Source: Verrucomicrobiota bacterium (GTDB lineage Bacteria > Verrucomicrobiota > Verrucomicrobiia > JADLBR01). From it: a stretch of DNA of 64,000 bases. Every line of letters begins with the position of its first letter. The first letter of the stretch is position 1. This document shows, piece after piece, positions 24,882 to 36,526 of the stretch. The stretch lies in NCBI GenBank assembly GCA_029560585.1, contig JAKQKQ010000010.1, positions 1 through 64,000 on the forward strand, given 5' to 3'. Below the pieces are notes generated by a model. That model was given only the letters and a program-made list of their open reading frames with translations. It ran no database searches and was not told the DNA's origin. A program made the translations under genes and the position numbers.

Positions 24882-26702
24882 CTATCCCCCGCTGGGGACC
24901 CTTAAGTTCGCCATTTCCCTTCCGGATAGGCTCTGAGGAGCGCCGCGCCGTGTCAATACGCGACCGAGCGCCTCGACCGTCCAGATGGCGGGGTAGGCAG
25001 CCTCGCTATACCACAATCGGGCGAAATACAAACCGATGGGCGCAGCCGCGAGCCACGTGTCGGCCTCCACTCGATCCACGAGGTAGGACGCGCCCCGGTC
25101 GAGCGCCTCCCCCGCTTCCGAATGGGGCGCTTCCGCGAGCGCCGAGACGGCCAGTGCGGTCTCTTCGATGGTGGATGAGAGCCCCGCGGCGCTACCCCAT
25201 CCGCCATCGCGATTCTGGGATTCCAGCAGGAACCGCTGGCCGCGCCGGGTGTGGTCGCGACCGGGCTCGAATAACGCCAGTGCTCGCAGCACGCGGGCGG
25301 TGCCGATGACGGGGTTGGTTTGGTCGTGGGATCCCTGATTGCCAAACCAGAGCGGATGCCATGAGCCGTCGGCGCGCAACTCCCGCTGCAGGTACCGGAG
25401 CCCCCTTTCCTTGGCCCTCTGGCAATCGGGGCGGCTGGATTCCGGGTCCGCGGCATCGAGCGCCCGCAGGACGTGGGCCGTGAGATCCGGCGCGCTGCGG
25501 TCGAATGGCAGGTGCCCCCAGCCGCGGCAAAAGGTCGGCCATCCGCCGTCGGAATTCTGAAGATCCAGAAGCCATCTCACGCCCGAATCGACGGCCGCGT
25601 GGCGTTCGCTGGCGCGCGCCAGCGCGAGGATGGCCCCGGCGGTGTCATCGGCGTCCGGCACGCCACCGGGCAAGTCGGTCCACGCCCATCCGCCCGGCGG
25701 CGAATCCGTGTACGGATGGCGGCGGAGATGCTGCGCGGCCAGGATCCAGTCCCGCGTCCCGCCGATCTCGTGTGCCCTGCCCGCTTCGGCCAAGGCCACG
25801 GTGGATGCGGTGGTGATCCAGACGGAAAGATCGCTGTCGATCGGCCAACTCCCGTCTTCTCGCGCCGAGGCGCGCAGAAACGCAAGGCCCTTGCGCGCGA
25901 CCGGCTGGCCCGGACCGAAGAGGGAGACGAGGCTCATCGTGACAAAACTCGTCAGCGGCACGGCCTCCAGAAACCCGCCGCTGGATGGCTGGATATTCTC
26001 CAGCTTGCGGAGGGATGCGCCGGTCGCGGCCGCCCGCACCCACCGCCGCAGGAGGCTGCGCGACGCGTTGTGCCGGTCGATCGCGAGGCCGACGGCGATG
26101 AGGGCTGGCAATGCGTAGCTGACGACGTGCAGTCGCAGGAAGCGGAACCAGGCCGAGGGACACGCGGCAAGCTCGAAGGGAAGGGGGGGGACCCCTTCCC
26201 ATGGCGTGAGCCCCGCCAGCGCGAGATTCGTGAGGATGGGGACGGCGAACGTCCGATCGGGTGCGTAGGCGGCACAAATGGCCTCGCGGCGTTCGTCCTC
26301 CGTGGCACCGGCCACGCGGCAAAGATATCCGTCCAGCCGCCGCGACGGTTCATCCCCCAATAATGGACCTTGGCGCCCCAGCGCCAGCGCCGCGCGCACG
26401 AGCAGACTGGTGGAGAGATTGCTCGGGCTATCGGTCGTATCACCCCAGCCACCATCGGCATTCTGTGTTTGGACGAGCCATCCGACGCCGCCGCGAACAA
26501 GCGCGTCATCCTCTGGCAACCCGGCGATCGAGAGTGCGCTCACGGCCGTGGCGGTGGAGAGCGCCGACGAGGAGAGCCGGCCCCTCCAGGAACCGTCCCC
26601 GCCGCGCATGGCCAGCAACCTGTCCGTCGCTTTGCGGAGGGCGGCTTCGAGGCGTTCTCGATTCGGATCGCGCGCAACCCCCGTCCTGCCTCCCATGCTC
26701 AT
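24882..26702 (-). CDS. Class II terpene cyclase (squalene-hopene cyclase family)
   Basis: 606-aa double alpha-barrel protein of the squalene-hopene cyclase superfamily, which cyclises polyenes by protonation at a membrane surface. The catalytic DxDD motif is DADD at residues 350-353 (VPDADDTAGA). QW repeats include QNADGGWGD near 80, QNSDGGWPTF near 382 and QNRDGGWG near 496. Length is near that of hopene cyclases (about 630). The late active-site region reads WFGNQGSHDQTNPVIGT, unlike the Tyr-rich GVNYIYGT-type segment of hopene cyclases, so the substrate may differ. ATG 26702 overlaps the radical SAM stop (ATGA). No squalene synthase is in the window. Precursor and product are not known. 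Confidence 0.87.
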   Translation of the reverse strand: MSMGGRTGVARDPNRERLEAALRKATDRLLAMRGGDGSWRGRLSSSALSTATAVSALSIAGLPEDDALVRGGVGWLVQTQNADGGWGDTTDSPSNLSTSLLVRAALALGRQGPLLGDEPSRRLDGYLCRVAGATEDERREAICAAYAPDRTFAVPILTNLALAGLTPWEGVPPLPFELAACPSAWFRFLRLHVVSYALPALIAVGLAIDRHNASRSLLRRWVRAAATGASLRKLENIQPSSGGFLEAVPLTSFVTMSLVSLFGPGQPVARKGLAFLRASAREDGSWPIDSDLSVWITTASTVALAEAGRAHEIGGTRDWILAAQHLRRHPYTDSPPGGWAWTDLPGGVPDADDTAGAILALARASERHAAVDSGVRWLLDLQNSDGGWPTFCRGWGHLPFDRSAPDLTAHVLRALDAADPESSRPDCQRAKERGLRYLQRELRADGSWHPLWFGNQGSHDQTNPVIGTARVLRALALFEPGRDHTRRGQRFLLESQNRDGGWGSAAGLSSTIEETALAVSALAEAPHSEAGEALDRGASYLVDRVEADTWLAAAPIGLYFARLWYSEAAYPAIWTVEALGRVLTRRGAPQSLSGREMANLRVPSGG

Positions 26703-28234
26703 CCCGCCTGGTTCCCTTCCGGCAGGCCATGGGCGCCAGCCCGCCAGTGGTTCCAGCGCAGCAGCAGCCACCACTGGATGATCTGCCCGCTTCCCATGGA
26801 GCGAAGGAGCGCGCGGCGCCACAGCGGAACACCCGCGCCGCTCTGGTTATCCCAATAGAGGCGCGGGATCCATTTGAAGTTAAGGCGATAGCACGCGCGA
26901 AGGAGCTGCCAGTGGCGCGGCGTTAAATCCCCGGGCTCCAGCGCCCTGCCGCCGTTCACGGGTGCGTAGATGACGGGGAACACCGCCAGCCTCCCCTCGC
27001 GGAATCGGTTGACCCACTCCAGCGTGCGCGCGACATCCTCGTCTGTCTCACCCGGGAGGCCGATGATTAGACTCACGAAGGGGAAGTAACCCGCGTCGAT
27101 CAGGCGCTGGACTTGGACGGCGGAGAACTCGCCCCACCCGCGCGGATATCGCCCTCCCAATTTCGCGGCGCCACCATTCTCCTTGAGGAGTCTGCCGGAA
27201 GCCGTCTCGACGCCCACGTTGACCCAGAGATACCTCTGCCGTGGGCCATCCGTCAGGAGGCACCGGATCGTCGAAAGATCGGAATCGCCAAACTGCGCGA
27301 CGCTGCAGAGATTCGCGTGGTCGATCTGCAGAAGCCTCACGCCGGGAACGGCGCGGATCATGCGGACCAGCTCGATCAGTGCGCCCGGATTGGCGCGGCT
27401 GCCTTTGCCGCCATAGCGGAAGAAATCCTCGCTGAGCAGCGCCAGATTGGATTGTTCCCCGGCGATGTTGGCCCGCACATCGGCAAGGATCGTCTCGGGT
27501 GGCAGGTGGACCATCGGCTCCCTGGCGATGGTGCAAAAGTGGCATCCCATGCCGCAGCCGCGGCTGATCTCGACGGCGCCCATCGTGCTCGGCGCGCGTA
27601 TGAATGGGATGTCCCGCGCCACCGGTCCCTGGCCCTCTAGCACTTCGGGCTGGGCCCCGCCGCGCATGAGTTTCCGGAAGATCTCGGCGACATTGGCCTC
27701 CGCATAGCCGGTGACGATGTGATCGATGCCCGCGGCCCTTCGTTCCTCGGGGGACATCTGCCAGGCGCCCGGGCCCCCGAGAACGACGCGGGCCCCGGGA
27801 GCCCGCTCCGAAACGAGGCCCCGCACGCGGCGCAGGAGGCGCTCGAAACGGTCGCGCGGAACGATGCGCCCACCGGCAATGGCCGTCATCGTGGAGGAGT
27901 TCATGCCGCGGCCCGCGGGTTCGCCGGAGGAGATGCCGATCACGCGGGTGCGGGAACCGATCGCCGTCGGCAGTTGCGCCTCGTCCACGACGGCGACATC
28001 GGCCGGCGAGAAATCAGCGCGCAAGAGCGCCGCCTCGATCCGGCGCAGGCCCAACGGCGCGCGCTCGGCAAATCCGTTCGCGGAACCCCGGCGGGGCATG
28101 AGCAGTTTTTCGGTGATGAACCCGGGCGTCGTGGTGGTGGTGCTGGCCGCCAACATGCCATCGAAAAGCAGATCGTACCGCGCGGTCAGGGTGCGGTCGG
28201 CGGTGAGGACGATCGGGTACCCGGGATCGGACAC
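26699..28234 (-). CDS. Radical SAM protein with B12-binding-like N-terminal domain
   Basis: 511 aa. Residues about 1-190 form a Rossmann-like domain of the B12-binding type (VIGISSGEPAGRG, VVLGGPGAW, HIVTGYAEANVAEI); the DxHxxG cobalamin motif is absent. The radical SAM core begins VEISRGCGMGCHFCTIA with the CxxxCxxC cluster ligands and includes LLSEDFFRYGG, VNVGVETAS and SLIIGLPGETDED. Known relatives methylate or rearrange carbon skeletons (the hopanoid methylases HpnP and HpnR belong to this broad class). GTG 28234 is used: it lies one base after the ferredoxin stop; an upstream extension would overlap that gene by 260 bp. Coupled by ATGA to the cyclase. Its role in modifying a prenyl or cyclised product is inferred from position. 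Confidence 0.87.
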   Translation of the reverse strand: MSDPGYPIVLTADRTLTARYDLLFDGMLAASTTTTTPGFITEKLLMPRRGSANGFAERAPLGLRRIEAALLRADFSPADVAVVDEAQLPTAIGSRTRVIGISSGEPAGRGMNSSTMTAIAGGRIVPRDRFERLLRRVRGLVSERAPGARVVLGGPGAWQMSPEERRAAGIDHIVTGYAEANVAEIFRKLMRGGAQPEVLEGQGPVARDIPFIRAPSTMGAVEISRGCGMGCHFCTIAREPMVHLPPETILADVRANIAGEQSNLALLSEDFFRYGGKGSRANPGALIELVRMIRAVPGVRLLQIDHANLCSVAQFGDSDLSTIRCLLTDGPRQRYLWVNVGVETASGRLLKENGGAAKLGGRYPRGWGEFSAVQVQRLIDAGYFPFVSLIIGLPGETDEDVARTLEWVNRFREGRLAVFPVIYAPVNGGRALEPGDLTPRHWQLLRACYRLNFKWIPRLYWDNQSGAGVPLWRRALLRSMGSGQIIQWWLLLRWNHWRAGAHGLPEGNQAG

Positions 28235-28235
28235 G

Positions 28236-29036
28236 TCAGCGCGGCCCTTCCTGAAGTCGCTCCAGGCCATCCAGCAGTGCGTCGAGCTCGTCGCGGTCCC
28301 TTTTCGCGGCGACGCGGGGGCGCCCGCACTCGTCGCACGCGGGTGCGCCCGGTTGCGGGGCGGGTTTTCCCGCCTGGCCGCAGCGGGGACACGGCAGGCC
28401 GGTGCGCGCATAATACATCTTTCGTGCGGCCGCATCGGGCTTCGGGAATCGGCCCGGCGCGCCGGCGATGGCGGGGTCCTTGTCGTACAGCGCAAAAATT
28501 AGCGCGCCCTGGGGGCAGATCCGACTGCACGCCGGACAACCCGGCTTGCACCGATCGGGATGGACGATCCGCACCTTCTTTCTCTCATCCATCTCGTACA
28601 CGCCAAAGAGGCAGAACTGAAAACAGCTTCCGCAGTGCGTGCAGCGGCTCTCGTCCACGAGCGGGTACCAGCGCGCGCCGGCCGACGCGTCCCGCCTCTG
28701 GATGGAGCCCGCGCCCGAGGGCGAGCCGAGCCGCCTGGATAGCTCCGCAGCGAGAGGGGCGGGGGCCTCCCGCGTGCGCGAGTCCACGGCCAGGCATTCC
28801 GTGCGCCAGGCACCATGGCGGCGCAGCAGGGCCTCTATCGGCCTCGGGTGCAGCGGCAACAGGAAAACCGCCCCGCCCTCAAGGGACGCGAGATCGCGCC
28901 AGAGTTCGCACGCTTCGGCGACGTGATAGAGATTCGGGACGAGCCACACGTCAAACCCAGCATCGCTCAAGTGGCGGGGCAGCTCGTCAAGCCGCCCGTC
29001 AGAGGCGTCCAGTGCGAGCACGGCGGTAGGTCTCAC
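28236..29036 (-). CDS. Dicluster ferredoxin with N-terminal domain and C-terminal zinc ribbon
   Basis: 266 aa. Residues 1-125 form a small alpha/beta domain (TAVLALDASDGRLDELP, VFLLPLHPRPIEAL). Cys 132, 135, 138, 142 (CTHCGSCFQFC) and 163, 167, 170, 174 (CKPGCPACSRIC) bind two [4Fe-4S] clusters. Cys 216, 219, 234, 237 (CPRC, CDEC) form a zinc ribbon. The GTG start is decided by AGGAGG at 29043-29048, six bases upstream. As the first gene of the operon with its own promoter, it is the likely electron donor for the radical SAM enzyme and possibly for the DUF116 centre. Confidence 0.87.
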   Translation of the reverse strand: MRPTAVLALDASDGRLDELPRHLSDAGFDVWLVPNLYHVAEACELWRDLASLEGGAVFLLPLHPRPIEALLRRHGAWRTECLAVDSRTREAPAPLAAELSRRLGSPSGAGSIQRRDASAGARWYPLVDESRCTHCGSCFQFCLFGVYEMDERKKVRIVHPDRCKPGCPACSRICPQGALIFALYDKDPAIAGAPGRFPKPDAAARKMYYARTGLPCPRCGQAGKPAPQPGAPACDECGRPRVAAKRDRDELDALLDGLERLQEGPR

Positions 29037-30468: not shown

Positions 30469-30497
30469 TGTAACATTTTCCCTCCAACACGTCAGGA
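30469..30497 (+). promoter_or_regulatory. Putative ECF promoter of the sigma-factor gene
   Basis: TGTAAC (30469-30474), 15 bp, then CGTCAGGA (30490-30497). The -35 resembles the AAC-containing boxes used by ECF sigma factors and the -10 starts CGTC. The same bipartite motif with the same spacing lies before the kinase gene at 31294. It lies 27 bp before ATG 30524. Confidence 0.55.
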
Positions 30498-30523
30498 ATT
30501 AGTGGCACCATACGCACGCACCC

Positions 30524-31285
30524 ATGACCACCGATCCAGCATCGCGGTCATCGACACCGCACCCCCGCGAAGCGCGCGGCGCGGATTTTCGCACGACGCG
30601 ATGGACGCAGGTCAACCGGGCGAAGGCCGACTCGGAAGAGGGACGCCAGGCGCTCGCCGATCTCTGCGATGCCTATTATGAGCCCGTCGTCGCGTTCTTC
30701 AGGTGCGAGCTCCGTGAATCGGACGCGTCGCGCGAGATGGCGCACGAGTTCTTTGCCCGCGTCCTTGCAGGCGATGCCCTCGCAAGCGCCGAGCGGGAAC
30801 GCGGCCGGTTTCGCTCATATCTGCTGGGCGCGGTTAAGCATTTTCTTTCGCATCGACGGGAGGCGGCGCGCCGGCTCAAGCGCGGTGGCGGGGCGGAATG
30901 CGTGTCCTTGGATGACGATGATAGCGCCGTGGTGCGGTCGCTCCCGGACCCGACGGCGATGGGCCCCGACTCGGCTTTTGACCGGCAGTGGGCGTTGACC
31001 GTGCTGGCGCGGGCTCTGGAGTCGTTGCGCCTCGAATGCGCCGCGGAGGGGCGCGCGGCAGTGTTTGAGCAGACAAGGCCATGGCTCACGGGCGATGCGG
31101 CACAAGGCGATCAGGCGGCGGTGGCGGCGAAGTGCGGATTGAGCGCCGCCGCGCTCAAGGTGGCCGTGCATCGCATGAGGAAGCGATTTCGCGGGCTGGT
31201 GAAGGCGGAGGTCGCCCAGACGCTCGATGATCCCGGTCAGGTCGAGGCTGAGATGAGCGTCTTGTTTGCCGCTTTAGGGGGCTGA
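30524..31285 (+). CDS. ECF-type RNA polymerase sigma factor
   Basis: 253 aa. Region 2: ALADLCDAYYEPVVAFFR, SREMAHEFFARVLAGD and RGRFRSYLLGAVKHFLSHRR (key block FRSYLLGAVKHFL). Region 4, helix-turn-helix: AAVAAKCGLSAAALKVAVHRMRKRFR (key block LSAAALKVAVHRMRKRFR). The linker between the two is long, as in PVC-group ECF factors that pair with membrane kinases. The kinase gene starts 43 bp downstream. No anti-sigma gene of the usual kind is adjacent, so the kinase may control it by phosphorylation; this is inference. Confidence 0.88.
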   Translation: MTTDPASRSSTPHPREARGADFRTTRWTQVNRAKADSEEGRQALADLCDAYYEPVVAFFRCELRESDASREMAHEFFARVLAGDALASAERERGRFRSYLLGAVKHFLSHRREAARRLKRGGGAECVSLDDDDSAVVRSLPDPTAMGPDSAFDRQWALTVLARALESLRLECAAEGRAAVFEQTRPWLTGDAAQGDQAAVAAKCGLSAAALKVAVHRMRKRFRGLVKAEVAQTLDDPGQVEAEMSVLFAALGG

Positions 31286-31293
31286 AGAAACCT

Positions 31294-31322
31294 TGTAACC
31301 AATCCCCGCTTTTCTGTCAGGA
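31294..31322 (+). promoter_or_regulatory. Putative ECF promoter of the kinase gene
   Basis: TGTAAC (31294-31299), 15 bp, TGTCAGGA (31315-31322), matching 30469-30497 in sequence and spacing. The -10 ends seven bases before ATG 31329, so transcription from here would give a leaderless or near-leaderless message. Confidence 0.55.
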
Positions 31323-31328
31323 CATGGC

Positions 31329-34300
31329 ATGGGCGAATCAACTTCAGTCACGAGATCATGTCCCCGATGCGGTGCCACGCTGCCGTCGGAGGCCACCGCG
31401 GGCCTGTGCCCCCGCTGCCTGATGGCCGAGGCGATGGCGCCGACAGACCCGGGCACGGAGCCCGCCGGACCCGGGAAGGCGCTGTCGCCAGGGGAACTCG
31501 CGCCGCACTTCCCTCAATTGGAGATCCTCGAATGCCTCGGCCGCGGCGGCATGGGCGTCGTTTACAAGGCCCGCCAGAAGAGCCTCAATCGTTTCGTCGC
31601 GTTGAAACTTCTCGCGCCCGAGCGCGTGGGCGATCCGAAGTTTGCCGAACGCTTCACTGGCGAGGCGCAGGCGCTGGCGGCCCTGAATCATCCGAATATC
31701 GTGACCATCCACGATTTTGGCCAGGCGGGTGGCTTCTATTACCTGCTCATGGAATTCGTCGATGGCGTGAACCTGCACCAGGCGATGAAGGTGGGCCGCT
31801 TCACACCGGAACAGGCCCTGGCCATCGTGCCGCCCGTCTGCGAGGCGCTCCAATACGCGCACCGGCACGGCATCGTCCATCGAGACATCAAGCCGGAGAA
31901 CCTGCTGCTGGATAAAGAGGGGCGTGTGAAGATCGCGGATTTCGGCATCGCGAAGATGTTCGCGGCGGATCTTCCGGGCGCGGGCCCGGAAGAGTCCCAG
32001 CCCGCCGGCACGCCACAATACATGGCGCCAGAGCAGAAGGCACATCGCACCACCGACCATCGCGCGGACATCTACTCGCTCGGCGTGGTTCTCTACGAAA
32101 TGCTCACGGGTGAACTGCCCGGCAAGCCGATCGAGCCGCCATCGAGAAAGGTGCAGATTGACGTGCGGCTCGACGAGGTCGTGCTGCGCGCGCTGGAGAA
32201 GGATCCCGAGCGCCGCTACCAGCACGCGAGCGATGTCGGGACGATGGTCGAGACGATCACGAGCGCGCCCGCGGGCACCGCGGGCAAAGCCGCACAACGC
32301 TCGGATATGGTCCGCATCTTCGAGATCTTATCCGGCACCACCTTCACGTCCCCGCTGGCGATCAAACTCCTCAACGTTTCGGCGCTCGGGTTCCTCGGTT
32401 TCCTGTCCGCCCTTGGGTCTTTGCCGTTTCACGAGATGCGATGGTGCTTCGGGTTTTCTGGCTTCTTCGGTTTCTTTGGGCTGATCGGCGTCGCCTTTCT
32501 TATCGAGATGTCCACCCGGAGAAAGACAGGCCAATCGGTTACGGGGCCGCGGCCTCTCGTGGTCGTGGGATGCCGCGGCAACAAGGCGGTGATCCACTGG
32601 CCCGGCGTCGCGCTGAGCTTCGTCCTGACACTCGCGGTCACTGGAACTGCGGCGATCGTGGCATCCTCGGCCCTGGCCGACAGAATCGATTCAAGCGCCA
32701 TTCTCATCGCCGTCTTCCTCGCGCTGATGATCACCGGCATCCGCATCCGGTGCGGGCGGAAGATACCGGTGGATCGGTTGACATCGCTCGATGAGGGATG
32801 TGGTCCCGCGAACGCTCCTCCGAGGAATCTGCCGCTGTTCATCGAGCACGCGGGGCGACGGCGCCCCTGCTGGCCTGGCGTGTTGTTGTTCTGCGGGACG
32901 ATCGGATTGGTCGTGCTGGGCGTCAATCTCGCGATCGCGCTGCTGCTCTGGCTGCTGACCGAACAGCCCTGGCCGCTGTTCCAGCCCCGCGAATTGCCAT
33001 GGGTGCTCGTACTGATGGGGGCCTGCGCCGTCATGCGCCTGGCGGCGTTGAAATTGGGTGCCAGTGACCAGGCGCGACCCGCTTCCGCCCCGGCGGCCAA
33101 GGTCAGCACGGCGCGGATAGTCATTATCGCATTCCTGGGAATGGCGGTGGCGGCCGTCATCGCGGTAGCCGTCGCGCGTGTGACCCGGTTGATAGCCAGG
33201 GCGCCCCTGACCACGCCGATCGACGGTGGCTCGATGAACGACATCGCCAGGGTTGCGGCATGGGTTGTCATCGCCATCGCGGCGGGTGCTTTCATCGTCT
33301 ATCGCATCGGGCGCAGCAGGAAGGAGCCGCCCGGTGAGGCGCGGCGGGGGGCGGCGCCGGATCGCACCCTGTGGTCTCCCTTCCAGCCGCCGTTGGTTCG
33401 GGAGATTTGCGCGCACATGACGGAAACCGAGAAGCGGGAGGCCATGTGGCGGGGATTGCTCTTCGGACTCTGGAATGCCGGGACGTTTTTCGGTCCATTC
33501 TTCTTCATCTGGTTTTCCTCCGTACCGAAGCCGCTGAACTGGATTTACGGGGGCGCCATCCTTGTCATCGGGCTATCCCTTTATCCGCTGTTACGGCGAA
33601 TGGACCGAGAGTTTCTTGCCTCGACGGCCTGGGCGCGACAGCGGGGGATCACGGCGGAGCAATTGAAATCGACACGCCTGAATCGCCGGGCGCGAGATAT
33701 GATCTCGAGCATCATCGTCGCCCTGACACTCGCGCTCCTTCTCCGCGCTTTTGTCATTGGGAATTACCGGGCCAAAACGGATGCGGTGAGTCCCGAGATC
33801 CCGCGGGGGAGCTGGATGCTGGTCTACAAGCTGGCCCGCACATTCAAGCCGGGCGATATCGTCGCGTACTGGTGCGGGCAGAAGGTTTTTGTGGGCCGGG
33901 TGGTGGAATCCGCGTCGCACGATGGCGTCGTGCAAGTCGTGCGATCGCAGGCGCCCCCGGAACCCATAGGCACGGCCAGGATCATCGGCAGGGTCGTTTT
34001 CAACACCCGTGCCACGAGTGCGGCGGATCGGCAGATCGGGGAACCGGTGGCGGGTCCGGCCATCACCCGAGCGACCGGTCGCGCCGGCCGTGTTGTCATC
34101 GAGGGCCAAGGCGCCGCGAATGCGAGGTTTGTCATCGGGGTTGGCGGGGGGTCAATGAAGTGTGGCTTTCTCAGCGATACGCCGTTTACGGCCACTATCG
34201 CGCGCGCGTGGTGGGGAGGAGGATTGCATTGCGTCATCAAGGATTCACGCGGCCATGCGCTCTTTACCGTTGATGGCAAGACCGGTCCCATGACGGAACA

Positions 34301-34790
34301 GCAGCGGGGTCGGATTGTGTTTCGCAAGGGCACGCTGGTACGACAGCCCGACGGGTCGTACATCGTTGGCGAGTTCCAGCCGGAATCGGGCGCGCCGGTC
34401 GCGATCGTGATCCGGTTGGAGAGCGTGGGCGAGTCCGCCGCCGCGAAAAAAGCACCACTTGAGGTACTCCGCGTGCAACTCCGTCAGGCCCGGGAAGCCT
34501 TGTCTCTGGCCGAATCCCAGTTCAAGGCGGGGACGCTCGACGCCCGCAAGTTTCAGGCGGCAAAGGACGCCGTGGCCTTGCTGGAGGCCCGGATCACCGG
34601 CGATCCAGTACAGATCGCCCGTGTGCGGTTGGAGGCGGCAGAGAGTCAGCTCCGACTCGCTGAAGTCCTGTTCAATGCGGGGGCCATGAGCTTTTCCGAC
34701 TATCAGGCCGCGAAAGGTGAGGTCGAAGTGCGGAAGGCCGAGCTGAACGCCGTTCAGGCTGGACGATCCGCCATCGCGCCCGGCCCGTAG
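31329..34790 (+). CDS. Membrane Ser/Thr kinase with zinc ribbon and signal-peptidase-like domain
   Basis: 1153 aa in order: zinc ribbon (C11, C14, C27, C30); Hanks-type kinase about 64-320 with GRGGMG 71-76, catalytic Lys93, HRDIKPEN 184-191 and DFG 204-206; about ten hydrophobic helices between 345 and 810, including FGFSGFFGFFGLIGVAFLI. A peptidase S26-like domain follows at about 795-895 (IPRGSWMLVYK 824-834, KPGDIVAY 840-847). Then comes a beta-rich region and a C-terminal pair of helical repeats (SQFKAGTLDARKFQAAKD; LFNAGAMSFSDYQAAKG). The S26-like part keeps the Ser (828), but FVGRVVE stands where active enzymes have the Lys-Arg pair of box D, so proteolysis is doubtful. Likely phosphorylates a regulator in response to envelope signals and works with the sigma factor upstream. 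Confidence 0.88.
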   Translation: MGESTSVTRSCPRCGATLPSEATAGLCPRCLMAEAMAPTDPGTEPAGPGKALSPGELAPHFPQLEILECLGRGGMGVVYKARQKSLNRFVALKLLAPERVGDPKFAERFTGEAQALAALNHPNIVTIHDFGQAGGFYYLLMEFVDGVNLHQAMKVGRFTPEQALAIVPPVCEALQYAHRHGIVHRDIKPENLLLDKEGRVKIADFGIAKMFAADLPGAGPEESQPAGTPQYMAPEQKAHRTTDHRADIYSLGVVLYEMLTGELPGKPIEPPSRKVQIDVRLDEVVLRALEKDPERRYQHASDVGTMVETITSAPAGTAGKAAQRSDMVRIFEILSGTTFTSPLAIKLLNVSALGFLGFLSALGSLPFHEMRWCFGFSGFFGFFGLIGVAFLIEMSTRRKTGQSVTGPRPLVVVGCRGNKAVIHWPGVALSFVLTLAVTGTAAIVASSALADRIDSSAILIAVFLALMITGIRIRCGRKIPVDRLTSLDEGCGPANAPPRNLPLFIEHAGRRRPCWPGVLLFCGTIGLVVLGVNLAIALLLWLLTEQPWPLFQPRELPWVLVLMGACAVMRLAALKLGASDQARPASAPAAKVSTARIVIIAFLGMAVAAVIAVAVARVTRLIARAPLTTPIDGGSMNDIARVAAWVVIAIAAGAFIVYRIGRSRKEPPGEARRGAAPDRTLWSPFQPPLVREICAHMTETEKREAMWRGLLFGLWNAGTFFGPFFFIWFSSVPKPLNWIYGGAILVIGLSLYPLLRRMDREFLASTAWARQRGITAEQLKSTRLNRRARDMISSIIVALTLALLLRAFVIGNYRAKTDAVSPEIPRGSWMLVYKLARTFKPGDIVAYWCGQKVFVGRVVESASHDGVVQVVRSQAPPEPIGTARIIGRVVFNTRATSAADRQIGEPVAGPAITRATGRAGRVVIEGQGAANARFVIGVGGGSMKCGFLSDTPFTATIARAWWGGGLHCVIKDSRGHALFTVDGKTGPMTEQQRGRIVFRKGTLVRQPDGSYIVGEFQPESGAPVAIVIRLESVGESAAAKKAPLEVLRVQLRQAREALSLAESQFKAGTLDARKFQAAKDAVALLEARITGDPVQIARVRLEAAESQLRLAEVLFNAGAMSFSDYQAAKGEVEVRKAELNAVQAGRSAIAPGP

Positions 34791-35050: not shown

Positions 35051-36526
35051 CTACTTGAGTGCGGGTTTTTTTCCGCGGGCAGGTACAGCGAACAGGGGCC
35101 AATCCGGCGAATCCACGCGCGCGCGAGAGAGATACGCGTCCAGCTTCGCCGTGACATCGGGGTATCTGGCGGCGACGTTGTCTGCCTCGGCGGCGTCGGC
35201 GCGGAGATCGTACAGCTCCAGGGGCGCGGTGCGGCCGCCGCCGCGAATGGCTTTCCATCGGCCTTCCATGAGCGCCGCCTGTGAGTCGGACGCGCCGCCG
35301 CCGTGATACTCCCAATAGAGGAATTCGTGCTTCTGCTGTTCGTTGCCCCGACCCAGCAACGACGGCACAAGGCTGATGCCGTCGAGGCCGTCGGGTGTTC
35401 GCGCCCCGCCCAATTCGGCCGCCGTCGCCAGGAAATCGCCGAAATAGCCGACGTGTTCGGTGATGCCCGCGGGCCGGATCTTGCCAGGCCAGCGCGCGAT
35501 GAATGGCACGCGGATGCCGCCGTCGGTGTGATCGCGCTTGAAGCCGCGGCACGGGCCGGAGGACTTGAAGAAGGCCGTGTCGTAGCCGGTGAATTCCTTC
35601 TTCTCGGGGCCATTGTCGGACGAGAAAAGCACCAGCGTGTTCTCATCGATGCCGAGCGCCTTGAGTTTCTGCAAAATCGAGCCGACCTGCGCGTCGAGGT
35701 ATGAGATCATCGCCGCGTATCCTTTCTCGGGATCCGGCCACGGTTTGTCCGCGTAGGGGCCGAGGTCCGGGACTTCGGCGCCGTTGCCGAGTTCCTTTGC
35801 GGCCTCGTTGTTTGCGTGTGGGATGGTGGTGGCGAAATAGAGGAAGAAGGGGCGCGCCTTGTTGCGTTCGATGAATTGCAGCGCCTCGTCGAGCATCAGC
35901 TTCGGGCTATAGGCCACCCTGTTCGTCGTGATGCCGCCGGTACCCCACGCGCCCTCCTTGCCGACCGGGATCGGGCGAATGCGATTGGGCAGTGCAACCT
36001 TCTCTCGGTCCCGCCAGAGCCATTCGGGAAAGTACATGTGGGCGTGGACCTGATCGAGGTACCCGAAGAACAGATCAAAACCCTGCGCGAGCGGGTGCCC
36101 GGGCGTATCCGCGTCGCCGAGCCCCCACTTGCCCACGAGGGCGGTCGCGTAGCCCGCCTCCTTGAGCAGCGCGGCGACGGTCACGTCCTCGCGCGCGAGC
36201 GACTGCCTGAGGCGCTGCGTGGTCGGAGCGTTGCCGCGCACGCGGCTGTGGCCGCCGTGCTTGCCCGTCATCAGGACGCAGCGCGATGGCGCGCAAACGC
36301 TGGCCCCGGCGTAGAACTGCGTGAACTTGATCCCCTCGGCGGCCAAGCGGTCGATGTTCGGCGTCTGGATCAGCCGCTGGCCGTAACAGCCGACATCGCC
36401 GTAGCCGAGATCATCCGCGAGGATCAGCACGATGTTGGGGCGCGGGCCTGCATCGGCGCCTCGGACGGTGCCCGCGGCCAGCAGCACGGCCGCCATGGCG
36501 AGGACGCATCTTTGAACGGCGATCAT
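35051..36526 (-). CDS. Secreted arylsulfatase-type sulfatase
   Basis: 491-aa S1 sulfatase. Signal peptide (VLAMAAVLLAAGTVRG-ADA). PNIVLILADDLGYGD supplies metal ligands D38 and D39. The activation motif CAPSRCVLMTGKH has the formylglycine Cys at 78. Catalytic-region residues occur in LVGKWGLG, TTIPHANNEA and FSSDNGPEKKEF, and the C-terminal subdomain has PLELYDLRADAAEADN. Unlike the 327-1787 enzyme it has the longer DDLGYGD form found in arylsulfatase A-like enzymes acting on carbohydrate sulfates. Convergent with the kinase gene across a repeat. Confidence 0.93.
   Translation of the reverse strand: MIAVQRCVLAMAAVLLAAGTVRGADAGPRPNIVLILADDLGYGDVGCYGQRLIQTPNIDRLAAEGIKFTQFYAGASVCAPSRCVLMTGKHGGHSRVRGNAPTTQRLRQSLAREDVTVAALLKEAGYATALVGKWGLGDADTPGHPLAQGFDLFFGYLDQVHAHMYFPEWLWRDREKVALPNRIRPIPVGKEGAWGTGGITTNRVAYSPKLMLDEALQFIERNKARPFFLYFATTIPHANNEAAKELGNGAEVPDLGPYADKPWPDPEKGYAAMISYLDAQVGSILQKLKALGIDENTLVLFSSDNGPEKKEFTGYDTAFFKSSGPCRGFKRDHTDGGIRVPFIARWPGKIRPAGITEHVGYFGDFLATAAELGGARTPDGLDGISLVPSLLGRGNEQQKHEFLYWEYHGGGASDSQAALMEGRWKAIRGGGRTAPLELYDLRADAAEADNVAARYPDVTAKLDAYLSRARVDSPDWPLFAVPARGKKPALK

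Follow-up and report, generated by a model that had tools for sequence, protein, structure and literature searches.

Paired boxes upstream of a sigma factor gene and a kinase gene

In a stretch of 64,000 nucleotides from a Verrucomicrobiota bacterium (hereafter the window), a gene for an ECF-like sigma factor is followed by one for a Ser/Thr kinase, and a bipartite motif recurs 5′ of both. The question raised by this locus is what reads the two motifs: the sigma factor encoded between them, some other regulator or, in the case of the kinase gene, the ribosome. The initial annotation had described the motif as TGTAAC-N15-(C/T)GTCAGG with a further A, and both copies are indeed found on the + strand with equal 15-bp spacing: P1, TGTAAC-attttccctccaaca-CGTCAGGA, at 30469-30497, 5′ of the sigma gene, and P2, TGTAAC-caatccccgcttttc-TGTCAGGA, at 31294-31322, 5′ of the kinase gene. 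The features of the locus are as follows.

30469..30474, + strand: putative −35 box of P1, TGTAAC, from the sequence; kept in orthologs
30475-30489, + strand: 15-bp spacer of P1, with conserved TTT and CTCCAA
30490..30496, + strand: putative −10 box of P1, CGTCAGG, from the sequence; kept in orthologs
30503..30511, + strand: second conserved element of P1, TG-g-CACCAT, 12 nt after CGTC; resembles an extended sigma70 −10 element (TGnnAnnnT)
30524..31285, + strand: gene for the ECF-type sigma factor, 253 aa; single copy in this genome
31294..31299, + strand: putative −35 box of P2, TGTAAC, from the sequence; kept in orthologs
31315..31321, + strand: putative −10 box of P2, TGTCAGG; its TGTC ends 10 nt 5′ of the kinase ATG
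31329..34790, + strand: gene for the Ser/Thr kinase, 1153 aa; kinase domain at residues 65-271

Shuffles of the window gave 0.23 matches at two mismatches or fewer and reached two matches in 3 of 100 cases; the real P1 and P2 match with no mismatch. Across the 7.06-Mb genome, P1 and P2 are the only occurrences without mismatch of the full pattern, and likewise of the 11-base core GTAAC-N15-YGTCAG. AAC and CGT are hallmark boxes of ECF sigma factors, about 55% of which are predicted to be autoregulated (PMC8103513). In agreement with the ECF form originally proposed, AAC lies in the −35 box and CGT in the −10 box of P1 and of its counterparts in relatives; P2 of the window reads TGTC.

According to the predicted structure of its product, the upstream gene encodes an ECF-like sigma factor. 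A Pfam search with this protein returned no hit, and its match to TIGR02937 (E 2.6e-5) falls under the curated cut-off. The AlphaFold model (pLDDT 76) consists of two helical parts and a low-confidence linker (residues 127-141), and the top matches in a structure search are sigma factors, mostly ECF, with probabilities up to 0.96 but E values above 0.1. Model and matches together give the layout of ECF (group IV) factors, namely sigma2 and sigma4 only, with a linker, and the chain ends shortly after sigma4.

The other genome of the same genus (G001) holds no close ortholog, its best match reaching 39%, and close orthologs at 65-81% occur in other families; this patchy distribution implies loss or transfer. 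The neighbours on the minus strand (24882-28495 and 35051-36526) include a prenyltransferase/squalene-cyclase-like protein, a radical-SAM-like protein and a sulfatase, the first two named by eye.

Conservation of the boxes in related pairs

Relatives, almost all of them from Verrucomicrobiota, were gathered by protein search; the orthologous pairs treated here are sigma-first pairs with a sigma identity of at least 49%. In nearly all readable orthologous pairs, both genes are preceded by (T/G/C)GTAAC-N15-CGTCAGG, which we take as the refined common element, or by a close variant of it, and the 15-bp spacer is unchanged at both promoters in nearly all readable close relatives. The comparison of orthologous pairs suggested in the initial annotation thus reveals strong conservation before both genes. 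It also trims the second box, which had been given as eight bases: the first seven hold, whereas the eighth, A, is found mostly at P2 and varies at P1. A good P1 was sought and not found in L055, L057, L064 and L208.

In four loci (L051, L052, L054 and L022), a short upstream ORF runs from the GGCATGAT block and overlaps the sigma start codon; the window lacks it. Two near-identical sigma-kinase loci, L128 and L129, lie on two contigs of one genome (G243) and represent a recent duplication or an assembly duplicate.

The final A of the second box bears on the nature of P2. It completes an AGGA that lies six bases before the kinase ATG, a good Shine-Dalgarno distance, and its conservation mainly at P2 would fit a scenario in which P1 is the sole working promoter of a two-gene operon and what matches at P2 is a ribosome binding site. 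We consider this very improbable, as conservation extends to the −35 box of P2 and to its 15-bp spacing, and as three loci (L061, L065 and L068) do without AGGA and still keep the gap of 10-11 nt. Moreover, P2 stays attached to the kinase start where an insertion parts the genes (L059 and L071, with 200-330 bp between sigma and kinase), and in pairs with the kinase gene first, it is this gene that the promoter precedes. AGGA was also rejected as the cause of the common box: P1 has AGG too, far from any start codon.

Co-variation of the boxes with the sigma factor

Common sites before adjoining genes would also be expected of a repressor or an activator, and the boxes might therefore belong to some other regulator, or be promoters used by a different sigma factor, that controls both genes. 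We give this reading only a slight chance, because the bases of the boxes change together with residues of the adjacent sigma factor at positions expected to read the −10 and −35 elements. P1 and P2 differ by 1.19/13 mismatches within a locus versus 2.78/13 between loci (p<5e-5), with the same result when one locus per subclade is used; in 28 loci, the values are 1.50 within and 2.82 between (p<5e-5). The spacers show no such effect, with 9.45/15 within a locus versus 9.39/15 between loci (p=0.61), which argues against duplication, gene conversion or promoter copying as the cause.

Residues of sigma2 and sigma4 in ECF factors read the −10 and −35 boxes (PMC8103513). Residue-base associations were computed over 51 sigma-kinase pairs, with sites picked irrespective of the first two −10 bases. 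Of the sigma columns scanned, H110 in sigma2.4 shows the strongest association with the second −10 base (z 12.9), and E113, followed by H110, with the first; base 3 of the −35 box is associated with A210 and V213 in the sigma4 recognition helix, and base 4 with V213. By analogy with known ECF factors, and matched at the level of domains, these columns would lie in the parts of the protein that read the −10 and −35 boxes. At residue 110, H or K occurs with G at the second −10 base, D, E or Q with C, and N mostly with T. The association of this residue with the −10 base is partly phylogenetic, with four independent pairs on supported branches (p about 0.125); in these four, the base almost always went along with the residue, and the opposite direction was never seen. 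The clearest single case of a paired change is the second copy in genome G015 (L132), in which both −10 boxes read GCTCAG(G/A) and the protein, alone among those compared, carries KHFSSQ in sigma2.4, the others having KHFL(S/A)H or similar. A −10 variant peculiar to one paralogous pair of a genome, and present in both promoters of that pair, likewise speaks against a different regulator. Given the conservation of the boxes, their co-variation with the cognate sigma factor and the tracking by sigma2.4 and sigma4, the sigma factor very probably switches on its own gene and its partner kinase, as had been predicted from the two motifs.

Placement of P2, a possible basal element in P1 and the proposed circuit

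The kinase start codon follows the CGTC of P2 by 10 nt in 12 loci and by 11 nt in 20, that is, in all 32 loci. In the usual ECF geometry, such a gap puts the transcription start at or next to the ATG, and the kinase mRNA is thus predicted to be leaderless or nearly leaderless.

P1 holds a further element downstream of its −10 box. A sigma70 −10-like hexamer (TG-n-nAnnnT or TAnnnT) begins 10-13 nt after CGTC in 26 of 29 P1 sequences versus 1 of 32 P2 sequences and 0-1 in control windows, a count that is descriptive, since the pattern was framed after part of the sequences had been viewed. No full sigma70 promoter was called at P1 of the window, where no matching −35 was found. Primary sigma factors flip out A-11 and T-7 of such an element (PMC8103513), which makes a housekeeping-type basal promoter nested in P1 plausible. 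A sigma54-type reading of the downstream block was rejected, its spacing being unfit.

As a whole, we regard the following circuit as highly probable. The sigma factor of 30524-31285 would recognise the two boxes as −35 and −10 elements at both P1 and P2. Once active, it would autoregulate positively by transcribing its own gene from P1, and would use P2 for the partner kinase; there, the transcription start would coincide with the kinase ATG or lie no more than about two bases from it, which would yield the leaderless or nearly leaderless mRNA; the housekeeping-type −10 element nested in P1 probably supplies basal sigma factor and so starts the loop. The kinase, whose lineage-specific C-terminal part would act as the sensor, probably turns the sigma factor on or off by phosphorylating it, a step that we infer, together with its direction, from the pairing of the genes.

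The kinase

The kinase has a Cys motif at its N-terminus (CPRC...CPRC) and many predicted transmembrane segments. Residues 1-314 are conserved at 47-80% across the orthologous pairs (relatives including L051-L071). The C-terminal parts are unrelated among relatives, whose kinases range in length from 358 to >1900 aa; these parts contain many membrane segments or none, and Pfam finds in them PDZ and DUF6263, sulfatase-modifying-factor domains, or nothing. That sensors have been swapped on an unchanging kinase core seems a fair reading of this pattern. In the window protein, a stretch resembling signal peptidase I (S26) lies between predicted membrane segments, at residues 790-847 (window 33696-33869), on the evidence of a weak match to PF10502 (E 2.5e-5). 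Its catalytic Lys region, judged by eye, seems not to have been kept, so that it may be an inactive sensor part. PADLOC hits of the kinase to PD-T4-6 stem from the common kinase domain and do not point to a defence role.

Size of the regulon

The motif had also been put forward as a guide to a wider regulon, an expectation that the scans do not support. Searching the genome for the motif gave no genome-wide enrichment: a mismatch-tolerant scan returned 18 matches versus 26 for the reversed pattern used as control, and a second such scan 53 versus 102. The initial annotation had named two outcomes that would count against its proposal, a lack of enrichment genome-wide and a lack of conservation in related pairs; the former is what we observe, yet conservation in related pairs is strong. 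In 286 genomes of the class, the refined motif has few exact hits, and those with the pair's own spacers lie at sigma-kinase pairs. Three near-matches were inspected, and they do not look like promoters. The first, in one relative, lies where an aspartyl-tRNA-synthetase-like frame ends, the second antisense inside a glycosyltransferase-like frame in the window genome (both frames named by eye), and the third, in a different relative, away from a gene start.

Weak sites escape a consensus scan, and mismatched matches do exist genome-wide; both promoters could thus be real and the pair be the strongest target within a wider regulon with degenerate promoters. While this would be compatible with the circuit proposed above, we find it rather unlikely, if still a serious possibility, as near-matches do not outnumber those of the control and the ones examined, in this genome and in two relatives, are unlike promoters. 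Given the lack of enrichment genome-wide, the visible target set is the sigma-kinase pair, and beyond its own gene and partner kinase the sigma factor perhaps controls little else. If it serves its own pair only, whatever the circuit puts out must pass by way of the kinase.

Distant pairs and possible insulation

For distant pairs, with a sigma identity of 35-49%, a de novo scan for boxes common to the sigma and kinase genes found nothing significant in most. Printed upstream regions and a pentamer count indicate that these pairs retain GTAAC in combination with other −10 boxes. Upstream of the kinase, GTAAC tops the pentamer count, with 23 of 39 regions; upstream of the sigma gene, with 4 of 43 regions, it does not. 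Many distant pairs have the order kinase-sigma and a single GTAAC promoter, before the kinase; pairs in this order include L166, L169, L170, L187, L189, L190 and L214. The first two −10 bases vary among distant pairs even within one genome, reading CG, TC, CC, CA and GC in the pairs of G055, and TC and GG in two adjoining pairs of G232. This variation suggests that parallel paralogous circuits may be insulated from each other. One could tentatively extend this to the whole family, although we would put the idea at somewhat less than an even chance: each sigma factor would act only on its own pair's promoters in a self-contained circuit, insulated, where a genome has many pairs, through joint changes in the first two −10 bases (NN-TCAGG) and sigma2.4 residue 110, with the −35 GTAAC fixed and the kinases swapping their C-terminal parts. 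The natural series of paired sigma/−10 changes forms a data set on the insulation of duplicated sigma factors, and the variants are a possible source of orthogonal parts.

Comparison with known systems

Our literature search found no experimental paper on the kinase-linked sigma factor family of Verrucomicrobiota, for which the present analysis supplies a concrete promoter, a residue predicted to set specificity and a simple circuit open to testing in vitro. The locus resembles the autoregulated ECF (group IV) systems (PMC8103513) in its AAC-type −35, its CGT-type −10 and the predicted positive control of the sigma factor's own gene. It departs from them in that the partner is a Ser/Thr kinase rather than an anti-sigma factor, and in having two separate promoters, one per gene, with a spacer of exactly 15 bp.

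An ECF gene beside that of a Hanks-type kinase is known from ECF43, as in EcfP/PknT of Vibrio parahaemolyticus and EcfK/PknS of Xanthomonas citri (PMC8999054, PMC13147305), and the adjacent Hanks-type kinase gene is found here as well. ECF43 factors lack the acidic DAED motif of sigma2.2 and have uncharged residues and a conserved Thr there, whereas the present family has A(A/S)R(E/D), with one acid kept and no conserved Thr. In ECF43, the kinase phosphorylates the sigma factor and thereby activates it. The window protein has a Ser in sigma2.2; since this is Ala in most relatives, an ECF43-like phosphorylation of the Ser was rejected as a conserved mechanism. Judged by these residues, the Verrucomicrobiota family is not ECF43-like.

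Compared by description only, ECF59, ECF61, ECF62, ECF217 (planctomycete examples) and ECF283 likewise combine a sigma factor with a kinase neighbour (PMC8999054); in contrast to the planctomycete examples of kinase-linked ECFs, the relatives in this analysis come almost entirely from Verrucomicrobiota. ECF41 shares the narrow target set and a bipartite promoter with a −10 CGTC before neighbouring genes, but has a −35 of TGTCACA, a spacer of about 16 bp, a C-terminal extension and metabolic enzymes as partners (PMC3426412), whereas here the −35 is NGTAAC and the protein ends soon after sigma4. Read from its sequence, the system would be one of ECF autoregulation with a kinase partner, in a Verrucomicrobiota family.
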